Shown piece after piece: positions 1,488-5,076 of a DNA stretch of 12,529 bases. Below the pieces are notes generated by a model. That model had not been told where the DNA came from and did no database searches. It was given only the letters and a program-made list of their open reading frames with translations. This DNA comes from Candidatus Hydrogenedentes bacterium CG07_land_8_20_14_0_80_42_17 (lineage in GTDB: Bacteria > UBA8481): positions 1 through 12,529 of the forward strand of contig PEWQ01000108.1 of the NCBI GenBank assembly GCA_002780065.1, written 5' to 3'. Within the stretch, counting starts at the first letter, position 1, and every line of letters starts with the position of its first letter. The translations under genes were made by a program, and so were the position numbers.

Positions 1488-1518
1488 AGCCATAGGTTTT
1501 TTGATCTATGGCTTTTTT
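1488..1518 (+). terminator. Intrinsic terminator after the lipoprotein gene
   Basis: AGCCATAG (1488-1495) pairs perfectly with CTATGGCT (1506-1513) around a 10-base loop. A run of six T (1513-1518) follows, then GTTTT. It begins 15 bases after the lipoprotein stop codon and separates that gene from the primase-like pair. Confidence 0.85.
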
Positions 1519-1525
1519 GTTTTAA

Positions 1526-1554
1526 TTGTGAATATTGTGATATTAAGATATATT
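1526..1554 (+). promoter_or_regulatory. Candidate promoter for the primase-like gene pair
   Basis: TTGTGA (1526-1531) is separated by 17 bases from TATATT (1549-1554). Initiation near 1561 would leave a short leader before the AAGGAGGA ribosome site at 1573-1580. It sits between a terminator and a gene start, where a promoter is needed. The match is by eye. Confidence 0.45.
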
Positions 1555-1586
1555 TCTTTGTGGACTTTTAATAAGGAGGAACTAAG

Positions 1587-3134
1587 TTGCGCTGGAATTC
1601 TTACGATTTTGTATTATCAACTGATATTCAATTTAATGGAGCGAGTTTTGATTATTGTCCCGACATTGAGGCGTATAAGCATGCTGATATAAAAACGGAA
1701 TATCAGACAATTGTTTCTCCTGAGCTTTCCAGAGTTTATAGCCGCGCGGCAAGGTCGTACGAATCTGCAGACCAGTCTATTTGCGCGCACGTTAGAGCTA
1801 TTGATCATCAATTACCTTTTCCTGCGGAATTTTTCCAGTGTCTGCTTCAAAAGCCTTCTCACTATGTGGACTTCAAAGGAAGAGTCGGCGAGATTATGGA
1901 CATTGTCAGACGCAATCATACTGTCATAAATGGAATCTTTCATAAAGCGTTTGCTGAATTCTACGGCTGGGGCGCTCAGATAGACAAAACTATTTATAGT
2001 GAAGTAGATACCTGTTTCAGATTTCTTGATGATGAACTTCGCAGTATCTTGAAAGGATATTTGACTCAAAAACCTCAGCGCTCGATCTTTATGCTGGATA
2101 TTGAATCTTCGCCGGCAAGTTTCGATTGGCTCGAACCTGTGTATCAGACTTTGAAGTGGCATTTGCGTAATTACGGGCTCGATTTCATCGCATCTGTTTC
2201 GGGGAAAGGTTACCATTTTATTTCGCAAATACCTCTTTATACCGGTGACTACGGCTATGACGACGGCAAAGGGCATCTCAATTATGCTATGATAAATTTG
2301 ATGGCAGTCGGAGGCGCGATAAGACCGGAAACTGTTGATCATTTGGTCTCGGTCAGATGGGGTTCGAGAAAACTTGCTCCTACTCCGCTTCTTTCTCAAC
2401 GCGCATATCAGGGAATGATAAAGCTTCAGCAATTTTTTGCAGTCAATACGGCAGATGAGATTAGACGTTCGCTATCTTCTAAAAGTATGGCGCCGTGGGT
2501 GAATTTTACTGATTCTGAAAATGATACTGTGATTCTGGATTTGACTTCGATGCTTCGCCAGAGCGAAATGGCTGTTTTCGGTTCTGTTGGCAGTCTCTAC
2601 AATAAATCGAGGTATCCTTACAAAGTGCGGCTGATACGCTCAAGAAACGGACACGAATATTTCAATAACGATCTTTCATGGATGCATCACACTAGAAATG
2701 ATCTCGGCGCGGCAAAGATGCATCTCGTTCATTCGGGAGGCAGAATTCCTGACGGAACAAGAGGCATTGAAAATATGCTTCAGGCATATTCAAAGAGTAG
2801 AATTAAGCGTGAGCTTCATGATCCTTGCGATCGAGATATAAATCCTGACAGAATCCGCGATTTTATTAACTCGAATTATAGAGAGATATGGAGGAGATGC
2901 CCTTCGATTCTTCATGACATTGAAAAGGCTCAGCCGAATTTCTTGAGCCCTCAATCTTTGAAGTGGGTTTACGAACAGATGGCAAATAAAGGATTTTCTA
3001 TTCTCGATATGATGACACTTAGTAAGGCGGTCTACTGCGATCCGGTAAAGAGAGTTGATATTGATCCCAAGTATTCGAAGGATGAATGGTGCCGGTGGCC
3101 GGCAGTGCTTATGGGTGAATGGTTTAAAGGCTAG
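1587..3134 (+). CDS. AEP (archaeo-eukaryotic primase)-like protein, first of a tandem pair; motif III diverged
   Basis: I do not recognise this 515-residue protein as a named family. Its central part shows the AEP motif order. Motif I is FMLDIESSP with Asp171 and Glu173, candidate metal ligands. Motif II is SGKGYHF, Ser205 to His210, which matches the AEP sGxGxH nucleotide-binding loop. A later acidic strand VILDL (Asp318) is followed by GSVGSLYNKS (332-341), recalling the R.PgSlHxK segment of AEP motif III. The usual Arg and His of that segment are absent (Asn339 lies near the His position), so nucleotide handling may be altered. Residues 453-486 align without gaps to 373-406 of the next gene's product. 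The N-terminal 165 residues are unassigned. The start is a TTG placed six bases after AAGGAGGA. Primase, primer-polymerase or a degenerate partner subunit are all possible. Confidence 0.55.
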   Translation: MRWNSYDFVLSTDIQFNGASFDYCPDIEAYKHADIKTEYQTIVSPELSRVYSRAARSYESADQSICAHVRAIDHQLPFPAEFFQCLLQKPSHYVDFKGRVGEIMDIVRRNHTVINGIFHKAFAEFYGWGAQIDKTIYSEVDTCFRFLDDELRSILKGYLTQKPQRSIFMLDIESSPASFDWLEPVYQTLKWHLRNYGLDFIASVSGKGYHFISQIPLYTGDYGYDDGKGHLNYAMINLMAVGGAIRPETVDHLVSVRWGSRKLAPTPLLSQRAYQGMIKLQQFFAVNTADEIRRSLSSKSMAPWVNFTDSENDTVILDLTSMLRQSEMAVFGSVGSLYNKSRYPYKVRLIRSRNGHEYFNNDLSWMHHTRNDLGAAKMHLVHSGGRIPDGTRGIENMLQAYSKSRIKRELHDPCDRDINPDRIRDFINSNYREIWRRCPSILHDIEKAQPNFLSPQSLKWVYEQMANKGFSILDMMTLSKAVYCDPVKRVDIDPKYSKDEWCRWPAVLMGEWFKG

Positions 3135-3143
3135 CGACTGAAG

Positions 3144-4475
3144 ATGACTCCGGGAGAATACTACCGCAAAATATTGCCTTCTTTGAAACAGTCTTTTGAA
3201 CGCTCAAATTATCTTCTCGCGTACGGCAGAGAACTTATTAATCTTTTAGGGTTCGGGCCTTACGATCTTCCAGTGACTGTTCAGCCTGTTTCTGAACTTG
3301 AAAAAATTGCTCTGGATTGGAACCTCGAGGTTTTTCTTCCTGTGCGCGGCAGGGATGCAATTTTGTTTCCTTTCGATTTTGAAATTGCATTGAAGAATGA
3401 AAATTCTAAACTTTATATTGGTCAGGATTCGCAAAAACATTACATCAGAAAATATATCTTTCCGGTTTCAAATTTTCTGGAGCATTTTCTTCAAAAAAGA
3501 AAGATCCCGTATCTTTTGGATTTTACTCCGTCCGGCGGGCATATTCTCTTTTATGTAATTCGTGATTCGCAGGCATGGAACGCGTTGCAGTCTATAGGAA
3601 GAATAGAACGCGATTTGAAAAGCGCTTACGAATGGACGGATCGAACAGGGAATGATATTAAGAGGCAGAAAGCTATTTCTGATCCTGAAGGCTTGGTTTT
3701 CAGCGCAATTGGAAGAATAGCTGAATATATCGGTTTGACTTTTATTGAACTCGAGGACGAATTGGTCGGTAAAAAAAATCAGGATGGTTTGGAAGCTCAT
3801 CTTTGCGATGCTTCGGATAGATCGATTAATATTGATATTTCTTGGGCAGGCGACCCTTTGTATATGCGGATCATGAGAGCTCCCGCGTCGCTTCACAAAA
3901 AAAATATGAATTATTATCAGGTTACAAAGTTCGGACCGCTCGCAGATGCGAAAGCTGTTTACTTTGATTCAAAAAAAATATTCAGAGCGTATAACAAAAT
4001 TGAAGAGGTATTTGATGCACAGTGGAATTTGGAACGCGCTGCGGATTTTAATATGATTTTGCCTGGTTACATCCCATTCGCAAATGAAGGCTTGGCAGGG
4101 CTTGTTGAGGAATATAAGCGCTCGCCTCTATTCGGACATCATATCTATTTTGACAAAGAAGATGATATGCCGAGAGGTGAGGCAAGACTACGAGCATTAA
4201 GCGATTCAAGCCTTGATGAGAAGACAATCAGTATAGTTCAAAATCCTAATCCAAGAATGCTTCAGCCTGACGCGCTAAAAAAAATGGTTCGTGATTTTCT
4301 TGAACAAAATTGGCATCCAAGGCACATCGGAAATGTTATTCGAGATTGCTACATCGATCCAAAATTTGAGTGGAACGCCGACTGGTTTAAATGTCCTGCC
4401 GAGACTAGAGCAAATTTTTGGGCGCGAATATATTCTAGCGTATTCTACCTTGAAAACGGAGAACCTATCATTTAA
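3144..4475 (+). CDS. AEP (archaeo-eukaryotic primase)-like protein, second of a tandem pair; catalytic motifs intact
   Basis: This 443-residue protein shows a clearer AEP signature than its neighbour. Motif I is FPFDFE (Asp78, Glu80). Motif II is TPSGGHILF (Ser130-His133). Motif III is NIDIS (Asp231) followed by MRIMRAPASLHKK (241-253), very close to the R.PgSlHxK segment of archaeal PriS-type primases. These residues would bind two metal ions and the incoming nucleotide for primer or DNA synthesis. No helicase, ligase or zinc-finger module is evident. The C-terminal part (373-406 and following, ending in a W/R/F-rich segment ETRANFWARIYSS) resembles the end of the upstream protein. The gene begins 9 bases after the upstream stop without a strong ribosome site, which suggests translational coupling and joint function. 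The assignment comes from motif reading only; overall family, substrate and partner are unknown. Confidence 0.6.
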   Translation: MTPGEYYRKILPSLKQSFERSNYLLAYGRELINLLGFGPYDLPVTVQPVSELEKIALDWNLEVFLPVRGRDAILFPFDFEIALKNENSKLYIGQDSQKHYIRKYIFPVSNFLEHFLQKRKIPYLLDFTPSGGHILFYVIRDSQAWNALQSIGRIERDLKSAYEWTDRTGNDIKRQKAISDPEGLVFSAIGRIAEYIGLTFIELEDELVGKKNQDGLEAHLCDASDRSINIDISWAGDPLYMRIMRAPASLHKKNMNYYQVTKFGPLADAKAVYFDSKKIFRAYNKIEEVFDAQWNLERAADFNMILPGYIPFANEGLAGLVEEYKRSPLFGHHIYFDKEDDMPRGEARLRALSDSSLDEKTISIVQNPNPRMLQPDALKKMVRDFLEQNWHPRHIGNVIRDCYIDPKFEWNADWFKCPAETRANFWARIYSSVFYLENGEPII

Positions 4476-4501: not shown

Positions 4502-4538
4502 TGCAAGCACAGGCGAGGACACTTGTGCCTCTAGAGCG
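4502..4538 (+). repeat. 37-bp direct repeat, copy A
   Basis: It is identical over 37 bases to 4715-4751. It begins TGCAAGCACAGGCGAGGACA and ends CTCTAGAGCG. It contains an imperfect palindrome around AGGACACTTGTGCCT and is much richer in G+C than the adjacent AT repeat. Confidence 0.85.
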
Positions 4539-4570: not shown

Positions 4571-4619
4571 AGTGCAAATTGAAAATTTTATTTTTCCAAT
4601 TTTCATTTTTCAATTATTT
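4571..4619 (+). repeat. 49-bp AT-rich dispersed repeat, copy 2
   Basis: It is identical to 135-183. Similarity continues patchily downstream (ACAAGTTC here, ACACGTTC in copy 1). Upstream, a further CAAATTGAAA (4561-4570) precedes the unit, which suggests the full element is longer than copy 1 shows. It lies between the two 37-bp direct repeats. Confidence 0.85.
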
Positions 4620-4714
4620 TACAAGTTCTTTGAGAGAGGGAATATTACTTCTCATCTGGAGGCGCGTGCGCTACACGTCAATGGACGCCTCGCACGTGCT
4701 CGATAGGCGTGCGT

Positions 4715-4751
4715 TGCAAGCACAGGCGAGGACACTTGTGCCTCTAGAGCG
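4715..4751 (+). repeat. 37-bp direct repeat, copy B
   Basis: Second perfect copy of the unit at 4502-4538, in the same orientation, with 176 bases between them. It lies about 35 bases from the end of the histone gene, so it is in the histone mRNA's 3' region if transcription reads through. Confidence 0.85.
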
Positions 4752-4785: not shown

Positions 4786-5076
4786 TTATTCTGCCGCCGG
4801 TTCTTGACCTTCTGACTGAACCGGAGCAGCTTCTACTGCCTTAACTACTGCAGAATAGTTTTCAGTTAACATCTTTCCTGCAGTTTCAATATGCTCAGGC
4901 ATAATTGTCTTCTTCTTCGCCTTTATCGCTTCTTCCGCTGCAAGTCTTCCTAATTCCGCAAGAAATTTGTGTCCTAGAATTCTAGCCTGTTGAACTGCCG
5001 GTCCGCTGATTCTTTCAATTTCTCCTGCTCCGCTTAATACGTGAGCCTTTGCTACACTTGTTGCAATGTCTGCCAT
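4786..5076 (-). CDS. Histone-fold DNA-binding protein (archaeal/bacterial histone type)
   Basis: This 96-residue protein follows the single histone-fold plan: short helix 1 (about 3-14), loop GAGEIERIS (16-24), long helix 2 (about 26-54), DNA-contacting loop KKKTIMP (54-60) and helix 3 (about 60-70, possibly longer). KKTIMPEHIETA corresponds to RKTIKAEDIELA of archaeal histones, and RISGPA to RVSDDA. The span from that Ser to the loop Thr matches archaeal HMfB, as I recall it, in length (34 residues). The conserved Arg-Asp clamp of the loop/helix 3 junction is replaced by Lys55 and His62. A tail of about 20 residues, rich in Ala and Glu, follows. It probably dimerises and coats DNA or RNA. 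The start is supported by AGGAGG (5084-5089) seven bases upstream and a promoter-like element. It is a stand-alone gene, convergent with the primase-like pair and divergent from aconitase. Confidence 0.78.
   Translation of the reverse strand: MADIATSVAKAHVLSGAGEIERISGPAVQQARILGHKFLAELGRLAAEEAIKAKKKTIMPEHIETAGKMLTENYSAVVKAVEAAPVQSEGQEPAAE

Follow-up and report, generated by a model that had tools for sequence, protein, structure and literature searches.

A tandem pair of diverged AEP-family genes in a Hydrogenedentes bacterium points to a chromosomal family of candidate two-subunit primase-polymerases

Bacteria are taught to prime replication by DnaG only, and most bacterial AEPs have been assigned to mobile elements or to NHEJ. 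What, then, do two AEP-like genes do that lie in tandem among metabolic genes in the genome of Candidatus Hydrogenedentes bacterium CG07_land_8_20_14_0_80_42_17? We analyzed the whole stretch of 12,529 nucleotides that holds them (the window; contig PEWQ01000108.1), for which a sequence-only reading had proposed an undescribed two-gene system behind a terminator and under one likely promoter. Both genes, here called A and B, were found at the positions claimed, on the same strand and 9 bases apart (Table 1). Ahead of the pair there is also a terminator-like hairpin followed by a T run, at the end of the lipoprotein-like gene upstream (1207-1473) and before gene A. The promoter is a weak candidate, since it matches at just 9 of 12 positions and such matches are not rare (13 found across the region against 7.3 expected), so that this one is not clearly above chance. 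Gene A starts with TTG and has a good AAGGAGG in front of it.

The surroundings of the pair show further features. A 96-aa histone-fold protein, an archaeal-type feature in a bacterium, adjoins it (4786-5076, minus strand; PF00808 at 21.8 bits with a cut-off of 21.4, PF00125 at E 6e-5). There is also an AT-rich intergenic direct repeat of 70 nt whose copies are 90% identical (135-204 and 4571-4640), and an exact 37-nt direct repeat 3′ of gene B (4502-4538 and 4715-4751).

Table 1. Features of the gene A/gene B locus, in window coordinates.
Feature	Position	Strand	Description or basis
Terminator-like hairpin	1488..1513	+	11 pairs, then T run; tail TTTTTGTTTT
Possible promoter of the A/B pair, weak	1526..1554	+	TTGTGA-17-TATATT, 9/12 match
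Ribosome-binding site AAGGAGG of gene A	1573..1579	+	From sequence
Gene A	1587..3134	+	515 aa, strongly diverged AEP-family protein without four-cysteine domain
Gene A motif I, D171-I-E173	2097..2105	+	Invariant family columns
Gene A motif II, SGKGYH, residues 205-210	2199..2216	+	Invariant family columns
Gene A motif III, D318, then S336/K340 (S336-LYNK)	2538..2606	+	Family alignment
Gene B	3144..4475	+	443 aa; AEP-family protein of the b type, lacking the four cysteines
Gene B motif I, D78-F-E80	3375..3383	+	Model strand 72-83
Gene B motif II, SGGH, residues 130-133	3531..3542	+	Model strand 131-139
Gene B motif III, D231	3834..3836	+	End of model strand 226-231
Gene B motif IV, RAPASLHKK (R245, H251; S249-LHKK), PriS-like	3876..3902	+	Signature per PMC5862659
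Gene B helical C-terminal part, residues 313-443	4080..4472	+	Model and cysteine survey

We first consider the catalytic motifs. With AEP motifs I, II and III as defined previously (PMC5862659), motif I (hhhDhD/E) reads FMLDIE in gene A and FPFDFE in gene B, motif II (sxH) reads GYH and GGH, and motif III (hD/E) reads ILD318 and NID231. In an alignment of 42 family sequences the invariant columns are D78, E80, G131, H133, D222, D231, S249, K253 and P375 (gene B numbering), which cover motifs I, II and III, and since the motifs of A and B fall on these same columns they are not a chance occurrence. The order that had been read from the two proteins, a D-x-E, then SGKGYH or SGGH, a later Asp and S-L-x-x-K, is thus confirmed as AEP order in both. 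A PriS-like motif, R.P.SxHxK, follows motifs I to III in the family. Gene B also carries the H-R/K-H nucleotide-binding signature of archaeal and eukaryotic PriS (PMC5862659) as H133, R245 and H251, and so do the canonical copies of the two subunit classes of the family, a and b, described below; in the alignment gene A lacks the motif IV Arg and the second His.

The structural models agree with this assignment. The AF2 model of gene B is good (pLDDT 84.8, pTM 0.89) and that of gene A is weaker (pLDDT 65.5, pTM 0.71); both were built from alignments that include relatives, so that the fold predicted for A depends in part on the family. The leading PDB matches of the gene B model are AEPs, namely Prim-PolC (Z 16.1), LigD-Pol (14.9), the Methanocella NHEJ polymerase (14.8), human Pri1 (12.2), the Sulfolobus core primase (12.1) and CRISPR Prim-Pol (11.8), and the gene A model gave the same list, headed by Prim-PolC at Z 15.4. 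Furthermore, motifs I, II and III of the gene B model lie on the expected strands. An RRM-like AEP catalytic fold, which the earlier reading had put forward for structure prediction to decide, is therefore supported by the models for B and, at moderate confidence, for A. Searches of the PDB by sequence were uninformative: gene B as a single sequence had no match, the antibody structures that were the only matches of gene A were dismissed as chance, and a profile search gave chance matches only.

No family in Pfam, NCBIfam, PHROG or PADLOC recognizes gene A or gene B, PF01896 (archaeal/eukaryotic PriS) matches neither the window proteins nor their relatives, and a search of the open-access literature found no description of the family. 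Searches with gene B gave relatives in distant bacteria and a paralogue in the host genome itself, a canonical a protein of 465 aa on another contig (C151). A profile built without the window proteins finds gene B in the host genome at E 5e-66 and gene A as two collinear stretches (E 1e-8 and 5e-6). A scan of named genomes yielded 33 family loci in 31 genomes, which belong to Auribacterota (Tritonobacter, Erginobacter, Euphemobacter), Elusimicrobiota, records labelled Hydrogenedentota, Lindowbacteria, Schekmanbacteria, Caldiserica, UBP18, PVC and one Woesearchaeon. The distribution is patchy: among 386 genomes drawn from across the domain, 18 carry the family. Between phyla, the canonical copies often share 45-60% identity. 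Two side branches were seen: a diverged member without the four-cysteine tail whose motif II reads TGQGYN, with Asn for His (locus L143, 6072-7340, genome G485), and a further subgroup with 100/100 support in the tree (L006, L041, L125 and L129) that provides an extra copy in some genomes.

The family comprises two paralogous classes. In 12 of the 31 named genomes a second family gene lies directly 3′ of the first (gap 2-331 bases, mostly below 90), and the order is a then b in all 12 of these pairs. Motif II reads TGQGYH in a and TxSGYH in b, and within one bacterial pair the two proteins are 39-44% identical. The b proteins, gene B included, form one clade with 100/100 support, inside which the b proteins without a four-cysteine site (gene B, Woesearchaeal and Elusimicrobial) group together at 95/95, several of them on long branches. 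Six Elusimicrobia carry such a b protein unlinked to a, and in a second archaeal genome, G658, b comes first and overlaps a by 4 bases (L142, 6215-9045). The pairing persists across phyla and after genomic separation, which fits the behavior of two partners. Together with the failure of curated families to recognize either gene, this conserved adjacency supports the proposal of an undescribed two-gene system.

Canonical copies of the family end in LPPC ... GWHPKHIAGL.RS ... NC-x8-C-x4-CG, and the PriL Fe-S domain of the DPANN fused primases has FPPC ... FL...GW ... NC-x(about 11)-C-x5-C. By hhalign, the DPANN fused PriS-PriL scored 40.8 with the a profile, 36.3 with that of all members and 35.4 with the b profile; 60 column shuffles reached at most 30.1, 30.1 and 27.3, respectively (means about 17), and the reversed profile at most 29.7. 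The alignment covers the PriS N-terminus up to and including motif II, and also the LPPC region. PF04104 gave weak matches in 3 of 42 family proteins. Judged by sequence, most members thus resemble PriS and PriL joined in one chain, as in the DPANN enzymes. Of 64 family proteins, 53 have all four cysteines; those that lack them are the two window proteins, the archaeal b and the second copies in Elusimicrobia, besides a small number of fragmentary or deviant rows. This all-or-none loss fits a single metal site, which by its resemblance to the PriL Fe-S domain is probably an Fe-S site, although the cysteines could bind zinc instead. An attempt to name the initiation arginine of the PriL-like domain was dropped because the alignment does not place such an Arg. 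It had been noted that the partner domains of known bacterial AEPs are absent; this stands for the window pair and fails for the family, most members of which carry the PriL-like four-cysteine domain.

Gene B is a b-type protein after loss of the cluster, and its helical C-terminal part is what remains of the PriL-like domain, with the cysteines gone. The placement of gene A is less clear: the b profile scores it higher than the a profile (64.6 versus 48.3 bits), while the tree slightly prefers a (AU test undecided, p 0.196), and we did not accept it as a clear orthologue of a. By these profile and tree comparisons it is a strongly diverged family member, neither clearly a nor b. With its Fe-S site lost, and with gene A lacking motif IV and highly diverged (branch 6.8-9.3), the pair in the window may have moved away from the original function.

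We next examined which cellular role would suit such proteins. The N domain of DnaG was found in the host genome, and 29 of 31 carriers have DnaG, all but the archaeon and one draft genome; replacement of DnaG in bacteria is therefore ruled out. Ku is absent from 31 of 32 carriers, which rules out a role in NHEJ, and these two findings together indicate an accessory system that is neither the main primase nor NHEJ. PrimPol-PV1 primases, which phages, plasmids or integrated elements encode, often together with a helicase or PriCT, do not fit either, given metabolic neighbors and no relative among viral contigs or match in PHROG, and phage origin is likewise not supported by the viral contigs. 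No cas-like neighbor was recognized among the window ORFs and there was no PADLOC match. Across the family the neighbors are housekeeping genes of the chromosome, not the same ones in each phylum, rather than phage, plasmid or CRISPR genes, and in most loci no conserved DNA-repair or replication neighbor was found.

The archaeal carriers offer a separate view of this role. The PF04104 match is missing in the Woesearchaeon G089 and in five others of 60 genomes in its phylum. With a sensitive profile of the fused primase, the enzyme was detected in those five genomes as well as in five of five further archaeal genomes, but not in G089 (a draft genome; locus L038), which carries a and b beside an archaeal Hjc resolvase gene. 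This one draft genome suggests that the a/b pair replaced the fused primase there. As a general rule for archaea such replacement is ruled out, because in G658 the pair coexists with the fused primase (E 4e-159). We regard it as doubtful that a and b make up a full two-subunit primase fit for replication, one that replaced the fused PriS-PriL in G089 and serves as a second machine beside DnaG in bacteria.

The reading that we favor, with a probability of roughly one half, is that A and B represent, in a form specific to their lineage, a chromosomal two-subunit primase-polymerase made of the paralogous AEP proteins a and b. We infer that a and b form one complex and prime or fill DNA. Each ancestral subunit would join a PriS-like catalytic domain to a PriL-like C-terminal four-cysteine, probably Fe-S, domain; the PriL-like domain of a might help to bind the first nucleotide, which the AEP site would then extend, and b would either be catalytic too or hold the template. 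Where bacteria retain DnaG, the complex might act beside the replisome, in restart ahead of stalled forks or in gap filling during repair. In the host, gene B retains the complete catalytic set, whereas gene A, without the nucleotide-binding Arg and His of motif IV, may be structural or regulatory, and the canonical Fe-S copy on the other contig may be a further partner. Priming may survive without the Fe-S site, since PriX in Sulfolobus performs the initiation step in the absence of the cluster (PMC5700102).

The same structural matches also allow that these are gap-filling repair polymerases of the Prim-PolC/LigD-Pol kind, which extend strands and do not start them, the two genes being merely paralogues in an operon. 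Prim-PolC is the best match of both models, followed by LigD-Pol, and it carries out short-gap synthesis in excision repair (PMC5663958, PMC7442782). However, structural rank by itself does not decide function, no ligase gene was recognized among the window ORFs, Ku is missing as described above, and the ancestral PriL-like domain points to priming; we therefore consider this reading unlikely. Still less probable is an action on RNA, in which the family would serve RNA repair or turnover as a nucleotidyltransferase, whether template-dependent or not. Four of the six Elusimicrobia with an unlinked b have, whole or in part, the neighbors PIN-PhoH, PHP phosphoesterase, b and ClpC, and the PIN-PhoH and PHP phosphoesterase types that share this operon are linked to RNA processing; elsewhere, too, the neighbors of a and b are not DNA-replication genes. 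The closest domains are nevertheless those of DNA primases and DNA repair polymerases, and to our knowledge the PriL-like domain is known only from primases. The order PIN-PhoH ATPase, PHP phosphoesterase, Fe-S-less b and ClpC is conserved at L105, L107, L108 and L109, in several of which PHP and b overlap by 4 bases. About equally improbable is that the host pair is in decay or has taken on a non-enzymatic task, which would leave the canonical copy on C151 as the real enzyme: the missing cysteines and motif IV residues, the very long branches and the presence of a canonical copy only in a genome of the same order (G001) would fit, but both reading frames are long and open, with the catalytic acids and the His of motif II intact, and B retains all of its catalytic residues and groups with the other b proteins that lack the Fe-S site.

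The PriL-like domain, the a and b subunit classes, the distribution of the family and the exclusion of DnaG replacement and of NHEJ are new findings of this analysis. If the favored two-subunit reading is right, bacteria with a and b, in many little-known lineages, may have a second means of initiating DNA strands. A conserved chromosomal pair of the PriS-plus-PriL type across several candidate phyla would add a new cellular AEP family and a new heteromer of two catalytic-type primases, and it would give a natural test of how an Fe-S domain can be lost.

Among known systems, the fused PriS-PriL of DPANN archaea (Nanoarchaeota, Woesearchaeota and others; PMC7414124) is likewise a single chain of about 450 aa, with a PriS-like N-terminus (YY..R..I, DxD/E, SG..G.H) and the elements xPPC ... 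GW ... NC ... C ... C in the same order. However, single-profile scans do not find the two groups from each other at significance, and the DPANN enzyme is the single replicative primase of its hosts, whereas here there are two paralogues, mostly bacterial, beside DnaG. PolpTN2, a PriS-PriL fusion (PMC3973330), also combines an AEP and a PriL-like domain in one protein, but it is plasmid-borne and has Gln for the motif II His (PMC5862659), while the family is chromosomal and keeps His. Prim-PolC and the LigD polymerase domain of Mycobacterium, the best structural matches of the family's catalytic domain, have no PriL-like C-terminal domain and no paired subunits, and no LigC/LigD or Ku partner was found for the family. 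The CRISPR-associated Prim-Pol of Marinitoga has the AEP fold in common with it, but no cas gene was recognized among the window ORFs. Finally, archaeal PriSL/PriSLX (PMC5700102) shares the idea of a heteromeric primase and the H-R-H signature, although PriS and PriL are not both catalytic-type AEP and Fe-S fusions, as a and b are; its PriX is a relative of the PriL-CTD that works without an Fe-S cluster, as the Fe-S-less b proteins might.
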